Origin: Acidobacteriaceae bacterium
GTDB taxonomy: Bacteria; Acidobacteriota; Terriglobia; Terriglobales; Acidobacteriaceae
Assembly (NCBI GenBank): GCA_003152695.1
Contig: PMAT01000058.1
Location: 1 to 58,982, forward strand
DNA: 58,982 bases
Direction of reading: 5' to 3'
Numbering within the stretch: position 1 is the first letter of the stretch; each line of letters opens with the position of its first letter. The notes under the pieces are model-generated. The model was not told where the DNA came from. It made no database searches and was given only the letters and a program-made list of their open reading frames with translations. Positions 24,272 to 29,871 of the stretch are shown piece by piece. Made by a program: the position numbers and the translations under genes.

Positions 24272-25105
24272 ATGAGCAAAGTTCTTCTTATCGGCAAAGA
24301 TTCGGAGGCGACCCGTTCCGTCGCGCAAGCTCTTCGCAACAAAGATTGCCCAAGTGAATGCGCGTACGGTGGGGCGGACGCCATCCGCCGCTTGCGTCAC
24401 GAGTCGTTCGACGTGCTCATCACCGACCCGGAAACCACCATTGAGGAAGACCTGGCACTGATCGAAGAGGTACGCCAAATCCGACCCGGAGTGAAGACCA
24501 TCGTTCTGGCTCCGCACGCCACGCCGGAGGAGGTCATTGCCACGTTGCGAGCGCGTGTCTTCGTCTGCATCGGCGCCCCGTTTGATGCAGGCGAGATTGC
24601 CAACTTTGCGCATGAGGCCCTCTCCGACGCCGACTGGCGCACCGACATTGAGGTTTTATCCGCGCAACCTCACTGGGTTTCGCTGCGCGCCAACTGCCGC
24701 ATGCTGACGGCCGAGCGTGTGGTGAGTTTTCTGCGCGAGTTGTGCTCGGAATTGTCGGAAGACACGCGCAACGACGTGATGTTGGCCTTCCGCGAGATTC
24801 TGCTGAATGCCATGGAACACGGCGCGGCGTTCAATCGGCATAAGGTGGTAGAGGTGTCGGCGGTGCGCACCGAGCGGACGATTGTCTTCTACATGCGCGA
24901 TCCCGGTGCAGGCTTCCGCCGCGACGCCATCGCTCACGCCGCGGTGGCGAACGCTCCTGAGGATCCTGCCGCTCATATCGAACACCGGGACGAAATGGGC
25001 ATGCGTCCCGGGGGATACGGCATCCTGCTGGCGCAGGGCGTCGTGGACGAATTGATCTACAGCGAAGCGGGCAACGAGGTCCTGCTCATCAAGCACACGA
25101 CATGA
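24272..25105 (+). CDS. Degenerate receiver domain fused to HATPase (anti-sigma-kinase-like)
   Basis: 277 residues. Residues 1-120 form a receiver fold (MSKVLLIGKDSE ... FDVLITDPETT), but the acidic pair is Lys-Asp and the conserved Lys of the KPF motif is replaced (CIGAPF), so phosphotransfer is doubtful. Residues about 135-277 form a GHKL ATPase of the RsbW type: FREILLNAMEHGA (N box), MRDPGAGF (G1) and GMRPGGYGILLAQ (G2); no histidine-phosphoacceptor domain is present. It may act as a serine kinase or anti-sigma-like switch controlled by a pseudo-receiver. Ribosome site AGGAG. Monocistronic as far as visible. Confidence 0.75.
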   Translation: MSKVLLIGKDSEATRSVAQALRNKDCPSECAYGGADAIRRLRHESFDVLITDPETTIEEDLALIEEVRQIRPGVKTIVLAPHATPEEVIATLRARVFVCIGAPFDAGEIANFAHEALSDADWRTDIEVLSAQPHWVSLRANCRMLTAERVVSFLRELCSELSEDTRNDVMLAFREILLNAMEHGAAFNRHKVVEVSAVRTERTIVFYMRDPGAGFRRDAIAHAAVANAPEDPAAHIEHRDEMGMRPGGYGILLAQGVVDELIYSEAGNEVLLIKHTT

Positions 25106-25139
25106 GAGATTAAATAGACGATGGCTGTCCGGCCGGCTT

Positions 25140-25766
25140 CTACAGCCAGCCCTTTGCGCGGGCGATGCGGGCTGCTTCGACGCGGTTGGCGGCGCCGAGT
25201 TTACTGATGGCTTCCGACAAATAGTTGCGCACCGTGCCCTCCGACAAATTCAATTCCGTTGCGATGTCGGAACTGGCTTTACCTTCTCCGGCGAGACGCA
25301 GCACCTGGCGCTCGCGCTCGGTGAGCGGATCGGCTTCGTCGGTCCAGGCCTCGGCGGCGAGTTGCGGATCGATGACGCGCAGTCCACGATGCACCCGGCG
25401 CACCGCCTCTGCGAGTTGTTCCGCGGGCATGTCTTTCAGGAGATACCCGGAAGCTCCGGCGTCGAGGGCGCGGCGCAGGTATCCAGCGCGGGCAAACGTG
25501 GTGAGAATGATGACGCGCACTGGGACGCCGCGGCGCTTCAGTTCGGCTGCGACTTCCAAGCCCGTCAGCGTGGGCATTTCGATATCGGTGATGAACACGT
25601 CGGGGCGGGTTTGCTGCACCATGCGCAGGGCTTCGTCGCCGGAGCCGGCGCGGGCGACGACCTCGATGTCGTCTTCCATCTCGAGCAGCGCGGCCAGCGC
25701 GCCCAGAACCATGGCCTGGTCTTCGGCGAGGACGACCCTGATTTTGTCGCGCTTGGCGACGGACAT
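25140..25766 (-). CDS. NarL/LuxR-family response regulator (DesR-like)
   Basis: 208 residues: receiver (1-120; acidic pair ED in VVLAEDQAM, Asp in VFITDIEMP, Lys in GYLLKDMP) and LuxR-type helix-turn-helix (about 145-205; LTERERQVLRLAGEGKAS, SEGTVRNYLSEAISKLG). It is the partner of the kinase encoded 4 bp upstream and would bind DNA as a phosphorylated dimer, most likely at the ABC transporter promoter. Confidence 0.92.
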   Translation of the reverse strand: MSVAKRDKIRVVLAEDQAMVLGALAALLEMEDDIEVVARAGSGDEALRMVQQTRPDVFITDIEMPTLTGLEVAAELKRRGVPVRVIILTTFARAGYLRRALDAGASGYLLKDMPAEQLAEAVRRVHRGLRVIDPQLAAEAWTDEADPLTERERQVLRLAGEGKASSDIATELNLSEGTVRNYLSEAISKLGAANRVEAARIARAKGWL

Positions 25767-25770
25767 GCCT

Positions 25771-26883
25771 TTAGTTTCGCAGAACCGAGGCCAAGGGCGC
25801 GAGAGGCAAATGAATCACCAGTCGGGTGCCGGCGGCGGTCTGGCGCTGCAGCGAGCCGCCGATCGCCTCCAGCCGTTCGCGCATGCCGCGCAGGCCGTTG
25901 CCCTCCGGAGTATCGGCGCCGCAACCGTTGTCGGCAATCTCCAGAGTGCATAGCCGTTCGTCGCGCGCGAGGCGAACACTGCAGGTTTGCGCCTGGGCGT
26001 GGCGCACCACGTTGGTCACGGCTTCACGAAGCGCCAGGGCAAGCACGGTTTCCTGCGCCGGGCTCAGGAGGACCTCCGAGGCTTCGCAGTCCACGGTGAT
26101 GCCCGCGGTTTCGAGCGTCTGGCGGGCGCGCAGGAGTTCGGCGGCGAGTCCCTGGCCACGATATCCGCTGATGGCTTCGCGCACGTCGGCCAGCGCGGCG
26201 CGCGAAGTGTGCTCTACGTCTTGCATTTCCTGCTTGGCGCGCTGCGGGTCGCGGTCCACCAACTTGCGCGCCAGCTCCGCCTTCAGGGTTATGAGCGACA
26301 GCGTGTGTCCCAGCAAATCGTGCAGGTCACGTGCAATGCGCTCCCGCTCGGCGACCTTGGCGAGATGTTCAATCTCGTCCTGCGCGAGTTGCAGCTTCTC
26401 CGACGCGCAGTGCGAGACCGCCCCGAAGTGGTTTCCCAGTCCCACCAGGATGATCAACAGCAGCATCGAACCCCAAAACTCCACGGGCAGATGCAGGCGG
26501 TGCACGTAAAAGGCAAGGATGACGACCTCGAGCGCGATGAGCCCAACTACGCGTCGAAGACTGGTGGTGAAACCGGCAGCCGCGCTCGCGTAGATGAGTA
26601 GGCCCACACCCCCACCATTGAAGGGAATAGCGATCGCTGCCATCGCGATCATCGCGGCAATCGCAAAAAGCCTGCGCGGTTCGGGGCGAGAGAACGAATA
26701 CAGATACAGGAATACGAAGAGAAGACCGTACAGGGTATTCCCGATCCACAGCAACGGCCCTGCATGTCGCCATATCGGGTCCACGAAGAACCAGATCATG
26801 AAGGGCAGCCATATGATTGGCATCCACCGATGGCGGGCATGGTTAGGATAGATTTTCCACCAGATTGTGCGAAGGTTAGCCAT
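25771..26883 (-). CDS. Membrane sensor histidine kinase (DesK-like, HisKA_3)
   Basis: 370 residues from the ATG at 26883. About five transmembrane helices (from about residue 21 to 150) are followed by a coiled linker, the HisKA_3 phosphoacceptor ERERIARDLHDLLGHTLS and a HATPase domain (REAVTNVVRHAQA; DNGCGADTPEGNGLRGM). The many-helix input domain without a periplasmic loop is that of DesK-type kinases that sense membrane state. Longer in-frame starts exist upstream, but that DNA encodes a separate small protein in another frame. The order ABC ATPase, permease, small protein, kinase, regulator recalls Bacillus yvfRSTU and bacitracin-type detoxification modules. Confidence 0.88.
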   Translation of the reverse strand: MANLRTIWWKIYPNHARHRWMPIIWLPFMIWFFVDPIWRHAGPLLWIGNTLYGLLFVFLYLYSFSRPEPRRLFAIAAMIAMAAIAIPFNGGGVGLLIYASAAAGFTTSLRRVVGLIALEVVILAFYVHRLHLPVEFWGSMLLLIILVGLGNHFGAVSHCASEKLQLAQDEIEHLAKVAERERIARDLHDLLGHTLSLITLKAELARKLVDRDPQRAKQEMQDVEHTSRAALADVREAISGYRGQGLAAELLRARQTLETAGITVDCEASEVLLSPAQETVLALALREAVTNVVRHAQAQTCSVRLARDERLCTLEIADNGCGADTPEGNGLRGMRERLEAIGGSLQRQTAAGTRLVIHLPLAPLASVLRN

Positions 26884-26897
26884 CGTCTGCTCGGTTC

Positions 26898-27059
26898 CTA
26901 TTGTTGTCTGGAATGGGTCTTGGGCACAACCGTGTACCAGATCACGGCCACCGCAGTAATCGCCGCGCTCAGCCAATTCCAGTGGCCACTGAGAGTGAGC
27001 GCCGTAAAGATGACCATGGCCACAGCCCAAACGATCCATTGCGCAGTTTTGCTTTTCAT
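26898..27059 (-). CDS. 53-residue two-helix membrane protein
   Basis: A small open frame starting MKSKTAQWIVWAVAMVIF and ending TVVPKTHSRQQ. It has an excellent ribosome site (GGAAGG, 7 nt upstream) and two hydrophobic segments (about 8-22 and 27-46) separated by SGHWNW, with basic residues at both ends, so both ends should be cytoplasmic. It stops 14 bp before the kinase start, so the two are likely co-translated. No family recognised. It could be an accessory subunit of the kinase or of the exporter, or a phospholipase_D-nuclease-N-like small anchor; none of this is shown. Confidence 0.75.
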   Translation of the reverse strand: MKSKTAQWIVWAVAMVIFTALTLSGHWNWLSAAITAVAVIWYTVVPKTHSRQQ

Positions 27060-27116
27060 GATCACCTTCCGGTTCGACTCTAGCGATCGCCTGTCAAATT
27101 CGATAACGGCCTACAT

Positions 27117-27143
27117 CAACTGGCAACTGATTACTGACAACTG
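27117..27143. repeat. Short degenerate repeat CAACTG
   Basis: Three copies of CAACTG (27117, 27124 and 27138) with an intervening TTACTGA, in the 89-bp gap between the permease gene and the small membrane protein gene. Confidence 0.5.
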
Positions 27144-27148
27144 CATTC

Positions 27149-27967
27149 TCACCCATACAACTTGCCTTCATCCCGCCAGTAGCCCCAGGCGGCCAGTCCC
27201 AGGCAGATCAGGCTGAACGACAGCAGACCCTCGACGTGCGGCCAAGTGGAAGCCGGTACCATCCCCATGCCGACCACATTCAGTGCAAGCTGGCTCATGT
27301 GGAAGGCAGGCAGGAAGTTGGCGAACACCCGCAATCCGTGGGGTAGCATGAAGAGCGGGATCCACAGCCCAGAGCAGAACGCCATCGGCAAGTAAATCAG
27401 ATTGACCACCGCGGGCGCGGAATTCGGTTTCGCGAAGTATCCGATGGCCAGCCCCATCGAGCTGAAGGGAATCGAACCTGCAACCAGAATGCCGACCAGG
27501 CGAGCGGCCGTCGCCAGTGGCAGGCGCACGCCACCAAAAGCCGTCCCAACGGCAAGCAGCAGAAGCATGATCACCGTACTGAATACGACGGCCGAGAAGA
27601 GCTTGGCAAAGAAATAGGCGGCAATCGGCATGGGCGAAGCGTGCTTCACTTGCAGCCAGCCCTGACCGCGCTCAATCGCCAGGCTCACGCCGAAACCGAA
27701 CAGCGAGACCGCCATCACCCCGAAGCATCCCATGGTCGCCAGCATGTAGACCGCGGTTTCATTGCGGTTTACAGGGTTTCCCGATCCCAGGACGATGCCA
27801 AACAATACGTAGAACATCAGCGGAAATGCGACCGTCGAAATCGCATACACCGGGATGCGTACATTCTTCAGTAACTCGTACTTCGCTTCCTTGTAGAAGA
27901 GCGCGATGGTTCTGGCCGGCGAGCGGCGGGTCACGGCAAGCGTGGCGGGAAACGTGGTGGCAGCCAT
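27149..27967 (-). CDS. ABC-2 type transporter permease
   Basis: 272 residues with six hydrophobic helices (about 45-63, 75-98, 118-140, 150-172, 180-200 and 237-258). Signature segments NPVNRNETAVYMLATMG and the LPHGLRVFANFLPAFH loop are typical of ABC-2 permeases that export drugs, peptides or lipids. It pairs with the ATPase gene immediately upstream (spacing of one base between stop and start). A half-size permease, so a dimer is expected. Confidence 0.88.
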   Translation of the reverse strand: MAATTFPATLAVTRRSPARTIALFYKEAKYELLKNVRIPVYAISTVAFPLMFYVLFGIVLGSGNPVNRNETAVYMLATMGCFGVMAVSLFGFGVSLAIERGQGWLQVKHASPMPIAAYFFAKLFSAVVFSTVIMLLLLAVGTAFGGVRLPLATAARLVGILVAGSIPFSSMGLAIGYFAKPNSAPAVVNLIYLPMAFCSGLWIPLFMLPHGLRVFANFLPAFHMSQLALNVVGMGMVPASTWPHVEGLLSFSLICLGLAAWGYWRDEGKLYG

Positions 27968-27968
27968 G

Positions 27969-28925
<957 letters not shown>

Positions 28926-29021
28926 GGTTCGCTCCCGTGGCGCCCGGTTTTCTTCGGCCCACGCTGGCGATCATCGGTCATGCCAAACTCTGGCGGTAGT
29001 GCGGATTGTCAGCGATGGAGG

Positions 29022-29035
29022 GTGACAAATGTCAT
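29022..29035. promoter_or_regulatory. CRP/FNR-like imperfect palindrome
   Basis: GTGAC-AAAT-GTCAT, related to the two sites at 29257-29292, about 100 bp upstream of the ABC ATPase start. Orientation of the controlled gene is not certain. Confidence 0.4.
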
Positions 29036-29256
29036 GGAGGCGGCTGTACGCGGTGGCTCTTTCAGCGGTGGCGATCAGCTATCAGCTTCAAGGGACAGCG
29101 GATAAAACCCAAGCTCTTAGGTTATGGCAAGATCAGTCTACTGCTGCCCTCAACAGAAAGCCTCGGGTCTAACACGCCAAGGCCTTTCTTTTCAGTTAAC
29201 TTGCTGGTTGCCCGATCAGGGTGCGATTCGCCGTCGCATCCAAAATAGTCCTCCGG

Positions 29257-29292
29257 GTGACCTCTGTCACATTTGCAAGTGATAGCAATCAC
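29257..29292 (+). promoter_or_regulatory. Tandem CRP/FNR-like operators
   Basis: Two perfect inverted repeats, GTGAC-CTCT-GTCAC (29257-29270) and GTGAT-AGCA-ATCAC (29279-29292). Both fit GTGA-N6-TCAC and their centres are 22 bp apart, about two helical turns, so two dimers would bind the same face of the DNA. Confidence 0.55.
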
Positions 29293-29319
29293 GGCTCGTG
29301 GGACACCCTAGAGGCGACA

Positions 29320-29331
29320 CTTACATGTAAG
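29320..29331. promoter_or_regulatory. 12-bp palindrome CTTACATGTAAG
   Basis: A perfect self-complementary dodecamer 72 bp before the first gene of the CoA-transferase/oxidoreductase operon, probably an operator for a second regulator or part of the leader RNA. Confidence 0.45.
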
Positions 29332-29403
29332 AGTGAGGGGCCCGGAGCCAAAGCGCCGCACCCTGCCTTATGCGACCGTCGGCCGAGGGGGGAGAGCTCT
29401 ACC

Positions 29404-29871
29404 ATGTTGCTTGCATACCGCCTAGTAAAGCTGATCGAGAGCCATTCCGACGGGTTGGCCCGCAGCCTGCATGACCGTTATCGCCAGTGCGATAAGTGCA
29501 CGGCCTATGCCAACGTGCCTGACAGCGAGCTCACCGAAAAAGTGTATGACGTGTATCGCCATCTGGGCGAATGGCTGCTGGGCAAGACCGAGGCCGATAT
29601 AGAAAGCCGTTACTTGGAAGTCGGCGCGCAGCGGGCGGCACAAGGCGTGCCCATTAGCCAAGTGGTCTGGATGATTTGCCTGGTCCGCGAGAACCTTTGG
29701 GACTACCTGCAAAAACACGCTGAACTGGAGCATCCGGCAGAAATCTTCGGCGAGATGGAACTGCTGGAGATGCTGGACAAATTCTTTCATCTTGCCATTT
29801 ACTACGCCGCGCTGGGGCACGAGCGTGCCAGCGCCGGCTACTCCGTGAAATCGGAAACGGTTTCGGCTTAA
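29404..29871 (+). CDS. RsbRD N-terminal-like regulatory protein
   Basis: 155 residues, all helical, without a signal peptide: MLLAYRLVKLIESHSDGLAR, then VYDVYRHLGEWLLGKTEADI, RYLEVGAQRAAQGVPISQV and VWMICLVRENLWDYL. This resembles the RsbRD N-terminal domain, a globin-fold-like sensory module normally fused to a STAS domain or kinase; here it stands alone. Two cysteines (CDKC) might bind metal. It opens the operon with the CoA-transferase (16-bp gap), so it may modulate or sense the state of that metabolism. The domain assignment is moderate. Confidence 0.6.
   Translation: MLLAYRLVKLIESHSDGLARSLHDRYRQCDKCTAYANVPDSELTEKVYDVYRHLGEWLLGKTEADIESRYLEVGAQRAAQGVPISQVVWMICLVRENLWDYLQKHAELEHPAEIFGEMELLEMLDKFFHLAIYYAALGHERASAGYSVKSETVSA

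Follow-up and report, generated by a model that had tools for sequence, protein, structure and literature searches.

The window, a stretch of 58,982 nucleotides from an Acidobacteriaceae genome (4.5 Mb, 141 contigs, 99% complete), carries on its minus strand what appears to be an operon in the order ABC ATPase, ABC-2 permease, small frame, HisKA_3 kinase and LuxR-type regulator. The ATPase gene (27969..28925, minus strand) encodes a PF00005 domain, and its best NCBIfam models, DrrA and NodI, fell below their cut-offs. The ABC-2 type permease (ABC2_membrane; 27149..27967, minus strand) matched PF01061 above cut-off. Downstream, a membrane histidine kinase (25771..26883, minus strand) combines HisKA_3 (PF07730) and HATPase_c domains with a hydrophobic N-terminal part, in which about six hydrophobic stretches can be counted by eye and no sensor domain was recognized. 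An earlier reading of the DNA letters (hereafter the sequence-only reading) had called this kinase DesK-like; its HisKA_3 domain is present, and the label rests on that domain. The response regulator (25140..25766, minus strand) joins a receiver domain (PF00072) to a LuxR/GerE DNA-binding domain (PF00196). With this layout, the small frame would be co-transcribed with the exporter and two-component genes. Promoter and terminator scans stayed at chance level, Rfam gave no match in 25000-29500, and PADLOC (E 0.01) returned matches for the ATPase and the regulator and none for the small protein, kinase or permease.

A small gene between permease and kinase

The small ORF (26898..27059, minus strand) runs from an ATG at 27059 to a stop at 26898 and translates as MKSKTAQWIVWAVAMVIFTALTLSGHWNWLSAAITAVAVIWYTVVPKTHSRQQ followed by the stop, a 53-aa protein that frame conservation and predicted helices mark as a putative two-helix membrane hairpin. 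Its stop lies 14 bp (bases 26884-26897) before the kinase ATG (26883). Directly adjoining its own ATG is a ribosome-binding site, GGAAGGTGATC (27060..27070, minus strand), with a pairing energy of −9.0 against the typed anti-SD string; among 1932 other ATGs of the operon regions retrieved, 5.3% paired as strongly. The hidden 53-residue frame 14 bp upstream of the kinase gene that had been claimed from sequence was confirmed in coordinates and translation, and its strong ribosome site was likewise borne out. Across the related hairpin starts described below, median pairing was −7.5 vs. −3.6 for the 1932 other ATGs, the weakest few (−3.1) being no better than other ATGs. The frame is short enough for usual gene finding to overlook. 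Because 153 ORFs of at least 40 aa overlap a 17-kb stretch of the window, the mere presence of an ORF this long says little; what lifts it above chance is the conservation of the frame across the copies in its genus.

All nine genomes of the genus (9/9) contained a hairpin match, the copy in G200 being cut by a contig end. The frame lay directly upstream of the kinase in seven of the nine, at a spacing of 10-33 bp (14 bp in three); in G173, hairpin and kinase sit on separate contigs, each at a contig end, and a search of G200 at E 1e-20 returned no kinase. Four named relatives are Acidobacteriaceae metagenome bins, with palsa and bog as the samples. All eight uncut copies align over 159 bases with zero indels, and two of them end two codons early (51 aa). 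The spacer from the permease stop to the hairpin measured 56-171 bp in the six genus copies with the permease in hand.

The check for synonymous substitution bias in relatives that the sequence-only reading had suggested came out in its favor. Among the eight uncut copies, dN/dS was 0.11-0.44 in the 26 pairs (of 28) whose dS was finite, and mean pN/pS was 0.33 in the hairpin frame vs. 1.19, 1.46, 1.03, 0.50, and 1.51 in the five other frames. Because one antisense frame also reached 0.50, this frame contrast is strong but not uniform. The small frame is a real gene under purifying selection in the genus.

Diverged hairpins across the family

Weak matches in another genus (g7) turned out to occupy the same slot as the window hairpin. 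A survey of 300 family genomes yielded 124 kinase places in 118 genomes, and we examined 90 of these (30 loci and 60 regions, taken mainly from the head of the list). In five of the 90 the stretch lacked a permease, two of these lying at contig ends, which leaves 85 operons. A hairpin filled the slot in the order ATPase, permease, hairpin, and HisKA_3 kinase in 39 of the 85, across 14 genera; these frames are hydrophobic, 42-75 residues long, and lie in the permease-kinase gap. None of the remaining 46 operons held a small frame that qualified as hydrophobic, where gaps shorter than 400 bases were scored; frames in their gaps of at least 400 bases had been listed earlier, outside the random-gap scoring. 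When gaps were resampled under a first-order Markov model, such a hydrophobic ORF arose in 1 of 7600, compared with 36 of 38 real gaps (38 of the 39 hairpin operons, with the operon L072 excluded).

The 34 members that were aligned share a common pattern of W, L, G, L, (I/V)P and WY or YG, with no invariant column. Outside the genus, identity to the window protein is 8-36%, and the hairpin pattern is still kept. For the most diverged members, the case for homology rests on the slot and the hairpin form more than on sequence. In three of the 39 members, two of them from one genus, the hairpin start overlaps the permease stop. In L072, the hairpin begins 13 bases past the permease stop, and a 360-aa ORF sits between hairpin and kinase. 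This intervening ORF (bases 177-1259 past the permease stop) is hydrophobic, has no Pfam match, and overlaps the hairpin end with its start.

In the permease tree (84 rows, midpoint-rooted, L072 left out for its cut permease), a fully supported branch separates 45 rows, 38 of them with a hairpin, from 39 rows with none, although the rows are not independent. The hairpin label requires five changes on this tree (three to five in bootstraps) vs. ~28 when shuffled, and at least two changes are forced by well-supported branches. This distribution would fit a single origin followed by a few losses (in g11, g52, g72, and the g22/g51/g30 group), with the single losses unsure because of long branches in the tree.

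A few copies deviate from the usual form. In the genome G216 (L044/L080), an in-frame TGA truncates the hairpin after WY, leaving 42 aa. In G285 (L048/L081), the ATG that follows the ribosome site starts a different frame, and a 45-aa reading starts from an inner ATG. Both look damaged, which could reflect decay, assembly error or something else. The G236 hairpin also ends early, at 48 aa. Together, the seven clade operons without a hairpin and the damaged copies suggest that the hairpin is dispensable in some lineages. Disruption of the frame in related genomes had been named in advance as evidence against the gene. On this count the gene stands: the frame is kept under purifying selection in the genus and the same slot is filled in 13 other genera, with two damaged-looking copies there and 7 of 45 clade operons lacking the hairpin.

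By eye, no kinase-hairpin fusion was seen in the operons without a hairpin. In operons without the hairpin, such as those of the other clade at L108, L109, L113 and L117, there is often space at the kinase N terminus for a soluble extension of roughly 40-60 residues that reaches back to the permease stop. Within that hairpin-less clade, the slot in two of the five g35 operons (L111 and L125) is filled by a 260-aa CPBP/Rce1-type membrane protein, assigned in L111 by PF02517 (E 8.2e-18) and alike by eye in L125.

Beyond the family, no convincing hairpin was found in 249 genomes of the order or 347 of the phylum, in searches of limited sensitivity for so short a protein. One weak match there, a 78-aa protein (G313, L165), was rejected, as no permease or kinase adjoins it (best tblastn E for these 0.059); by eye it reads like an AtpZ/AtpI-type protein, and it has a twin in G307. 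Weak matches within frames of ~700-850 aa in other genomes were also taken as unrelated. Recurrent frames of ~720-760 aa in several family genomes contain a short segment that weakly resembles the hairpin profile (best E 7e-5) and is probably unrelated as well.

Predicted structure and family searches

AlphaFold2 placed helices at residues 2-23 and 27-44, joined by a turn of about three residues, in a model of moderate confidence (mean pLDDT 72.5, pTM 0.41) built on a shallow five-sequence alignment. The two helices that had been read from the sequence are thus predicted at modest confidence. A model of the kinase was poor (pLDDT 56.5) and was set aside. By a crude cut, 36 of the 39 members have a C-terminal tail with a net positive charge; the N-terminal stretch carries such a charge in 17 of 39 and a net negative one in none (0/39). 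Under the positive-inside rule, positively charged ends stay cytoplasmic, so these charges suggest that both ends of the hairpin probably face the cytoplasm. The model would be consistent with an inner-membrane protein of two short transmembrane helices and a tight turn.

Searches with the hairpin returned weak matches only, the best being E 0.0019 in Pfam (YtpI, in 2 of 34 members), E 0.0059 in NCBIfam, and E 0.078 in the PDB. In open-access full-text literature, we found no title or abstract opening on the hairpin protein, which is not proof of absence. We take a hairpin with a short turn to resemble the LiaI-LiaF-like TM1 domain. This candidate (PF18917) was rejected: its profile, run with E up to 10 against eight hairpin-carrying genomes, matched 40 times and never at the hairpin. 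The window's own genome has three LiaI-LiaF-like TM1 matches clustered elsewhere (G000:C89:69850-70625), and similar clusters occur in other family genomes.

Comparison with known systems

VraH, from the VraDEH exporter of Staphylococcus aureus, is the closest functional precedent. It resembles our protein as a two-helix membrane protein with cytoplasmic ends (probable in our case) and serves an ABC exporter, as ours may. Passages of the published work describe VraH as a two-TMH protein with cytoplasmic ends that interacts with VraE and raises resistance (PMC5985334). VraH differs in that its partner is a BceAB homologue, whereas the permease here is of the ABC-2 type (PF01061), and in that it comes from a different phylum; the likeness drawn here is one of description. 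VraH already provides an example of this kind, a small hairpin that serves an ABC exporter next to a two-component system; what sets the present case apart is its phylum, its ABC-2/HisKA_3 setting, and the set of sequences.

LnrJK consists of a HisKA_3 kinase and a LuxR-type regulator, and the window module has the same pairing beside an ABC exporter (PF07730, PF00072 with PF00196, PF00005, and PF01061). The LnrJK-LnrLMN locus of Bacillus subtilis is similar in uniting an ABC transporter and a two-component system but comprises three transporter genes, compared with one ATPase and one permease here. In excerpts of the work on this locus, LnrLMN inhibits LnrJK signaling by a mechanism whose molecular nature was still to be uncovered, and no hairpin gene is mentioned (PMC7472640). 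A further comparison is with MgrB, SafA, and UgtL, which act on PhoQ, a kinase with a periplasmic sensor domain, and have no exporter link. MgrB is single-pass and, like SafA, has one membrane helix, in contrast to the two predicted helices and short turn of the hairpin. Passages of a review present them as small membrane proteins acting on a sensor kinase, SafA as single-pass and UgtL with two TM helices, and add that such kinases are often repressed by accessory proteins of the membrane, transporters among them (PMC8534201).

Function of the hairpin

We consider it somewhat probable that the hairpin serves the exporter as an additional subunit, whether or not it also feeds back to the kinase. 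In favor of this reading stand the shared slot in 39 of 85 operons, its restriction to one permease clade, purifying selection, the hairpin pattern retained at low identity, the charge of the two ends and, as a second precedent beside VraH, the inhibition of LnrJK signaling by LnrLMN. Because the protein leaves little room for catalysis, it should act by binding. Its helices would attach to the permease, and perhaps also to the membrane part of the kinase, and the protein, itself non-catalytic, would adjust the activity of the exporter or the feedback that the exporter exerts on the kinase, as VraH does for VraDE. Membrane insertion, topology, binding, and effect on activity are all properties that we infer. 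Its constant neighbors are the permease and the kinase. Pointing to the permease as partner are the three start-stop overlaps, the L072 hairpin staying with the permease, and the VraH precedent; pointing to the kinase are the small gap between the two genes within the genus, the absence of a recognized sensor domain from the kinase, and the small PhoQ regulators. The seven hairpin-less rows of the clade (7/45) and two damaged-looking copies count against a subunit role and indicate that exporter and kinase apparently manage without the hairpin in some lineages. The sequence-only reading had proposed an accessory protein tuning the kinase or the ABC exporter, which would fit the position, size, predicted hairpin, and precedent and is still the preferred interpretation.

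Alternatively, the hairpin might bind to the kinase at its membrane helices and thereby set the kinase/phosphatase balance, as MgrB and UgtL do on PhoQ, leaving the exporter a mere operon neighbor. This seems to us possible but unlikely. Besides the evidence for a kinase partner given above, the CPBP-type protein occupying the slot in two of five g35 operons is consistent with it. However, the other clade's kinases manage without it, as do those of seven operons in the hairpin's own clade, and in L072 it has remained beside the permease rather than the kinase. Mirror-tree comparisons in the 25 of 39 hairpin operons with full kinase and permease in hand gave correlations of 0.76 with the permease, 0.68 with the membrane part of the kinase, and 0.87 with its catalytic part. 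Controlling for the kinase membrane part left a partial correlation of 0.49 with the permease, and controlling for the permease left a weak 0.11 with the kinase membrane part; both vanished given the catalytic part (0.01 for the permease and −0.11 for the kinase membrane part). The correlations follow overall divergence and single out neither partner.

Other explanations fare worse against the conservation data. The hairpin might itself be what the ABC-2 exporter carries, a cationic, membrane-active, leaderless peptide whose accumulation the kinase would sense; its size, hydrophobicity, positive tail, and exporter-side position would match leaderless bacteriocins. We judge this improbable, as the permease-kinase slot is fixed, the hairpin pattern is kept over deep divergence, each genome has a single strong copy among the matches listed, and diversifying selection, a possible trait of a weapon, was not seen in the genus. 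The frame, short, just upstream of the kinase and equipped with its own ribosome site, could instead be a translated leader, in which ribosome passage sets kinase expression and the product is inert. Yet selection here acts on the amino-acid sequence, the two hydrophobic helices are kept, and the hairpin-kinase distance varies, with a whole ORF intervening in L072, making a leader quite improbable. Finally, ORFs of such length abound by chance in the window, but frame, slot, and hydropathy are all conserved, purifying selection is evident, and resampled gaps almost never yield such an ORF; we regard an intergenic reading frame that merely opened by chance as extremely improbable.

In a further reading, the hairpin could be a dedicated membrane coupler that rides on the exporter and relays its working state to the sensorless-looking kinase, so that pump load sets pump expression. 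We offer this reading tentatively and think it rather unlikely. If it were true, the permease-kinase slot would be a plug-in site for interchangeable couplers, with the hairpin in one clade and the CPBP-type protein in some g35 genomes.

Gene slot and permease phylogeny can detect sequence-poor hairpins where single-sequence searches yield few. To a widespread kind of exporter/sensor operon, the hairpin adds a family of small membrane proteins for which Pfam and NCBIfam have no model. In a layout similar to that of LnrJK-LnrLMN, such a small subunit would be a testable answer to how LnrLMN inhibits LnrJK.
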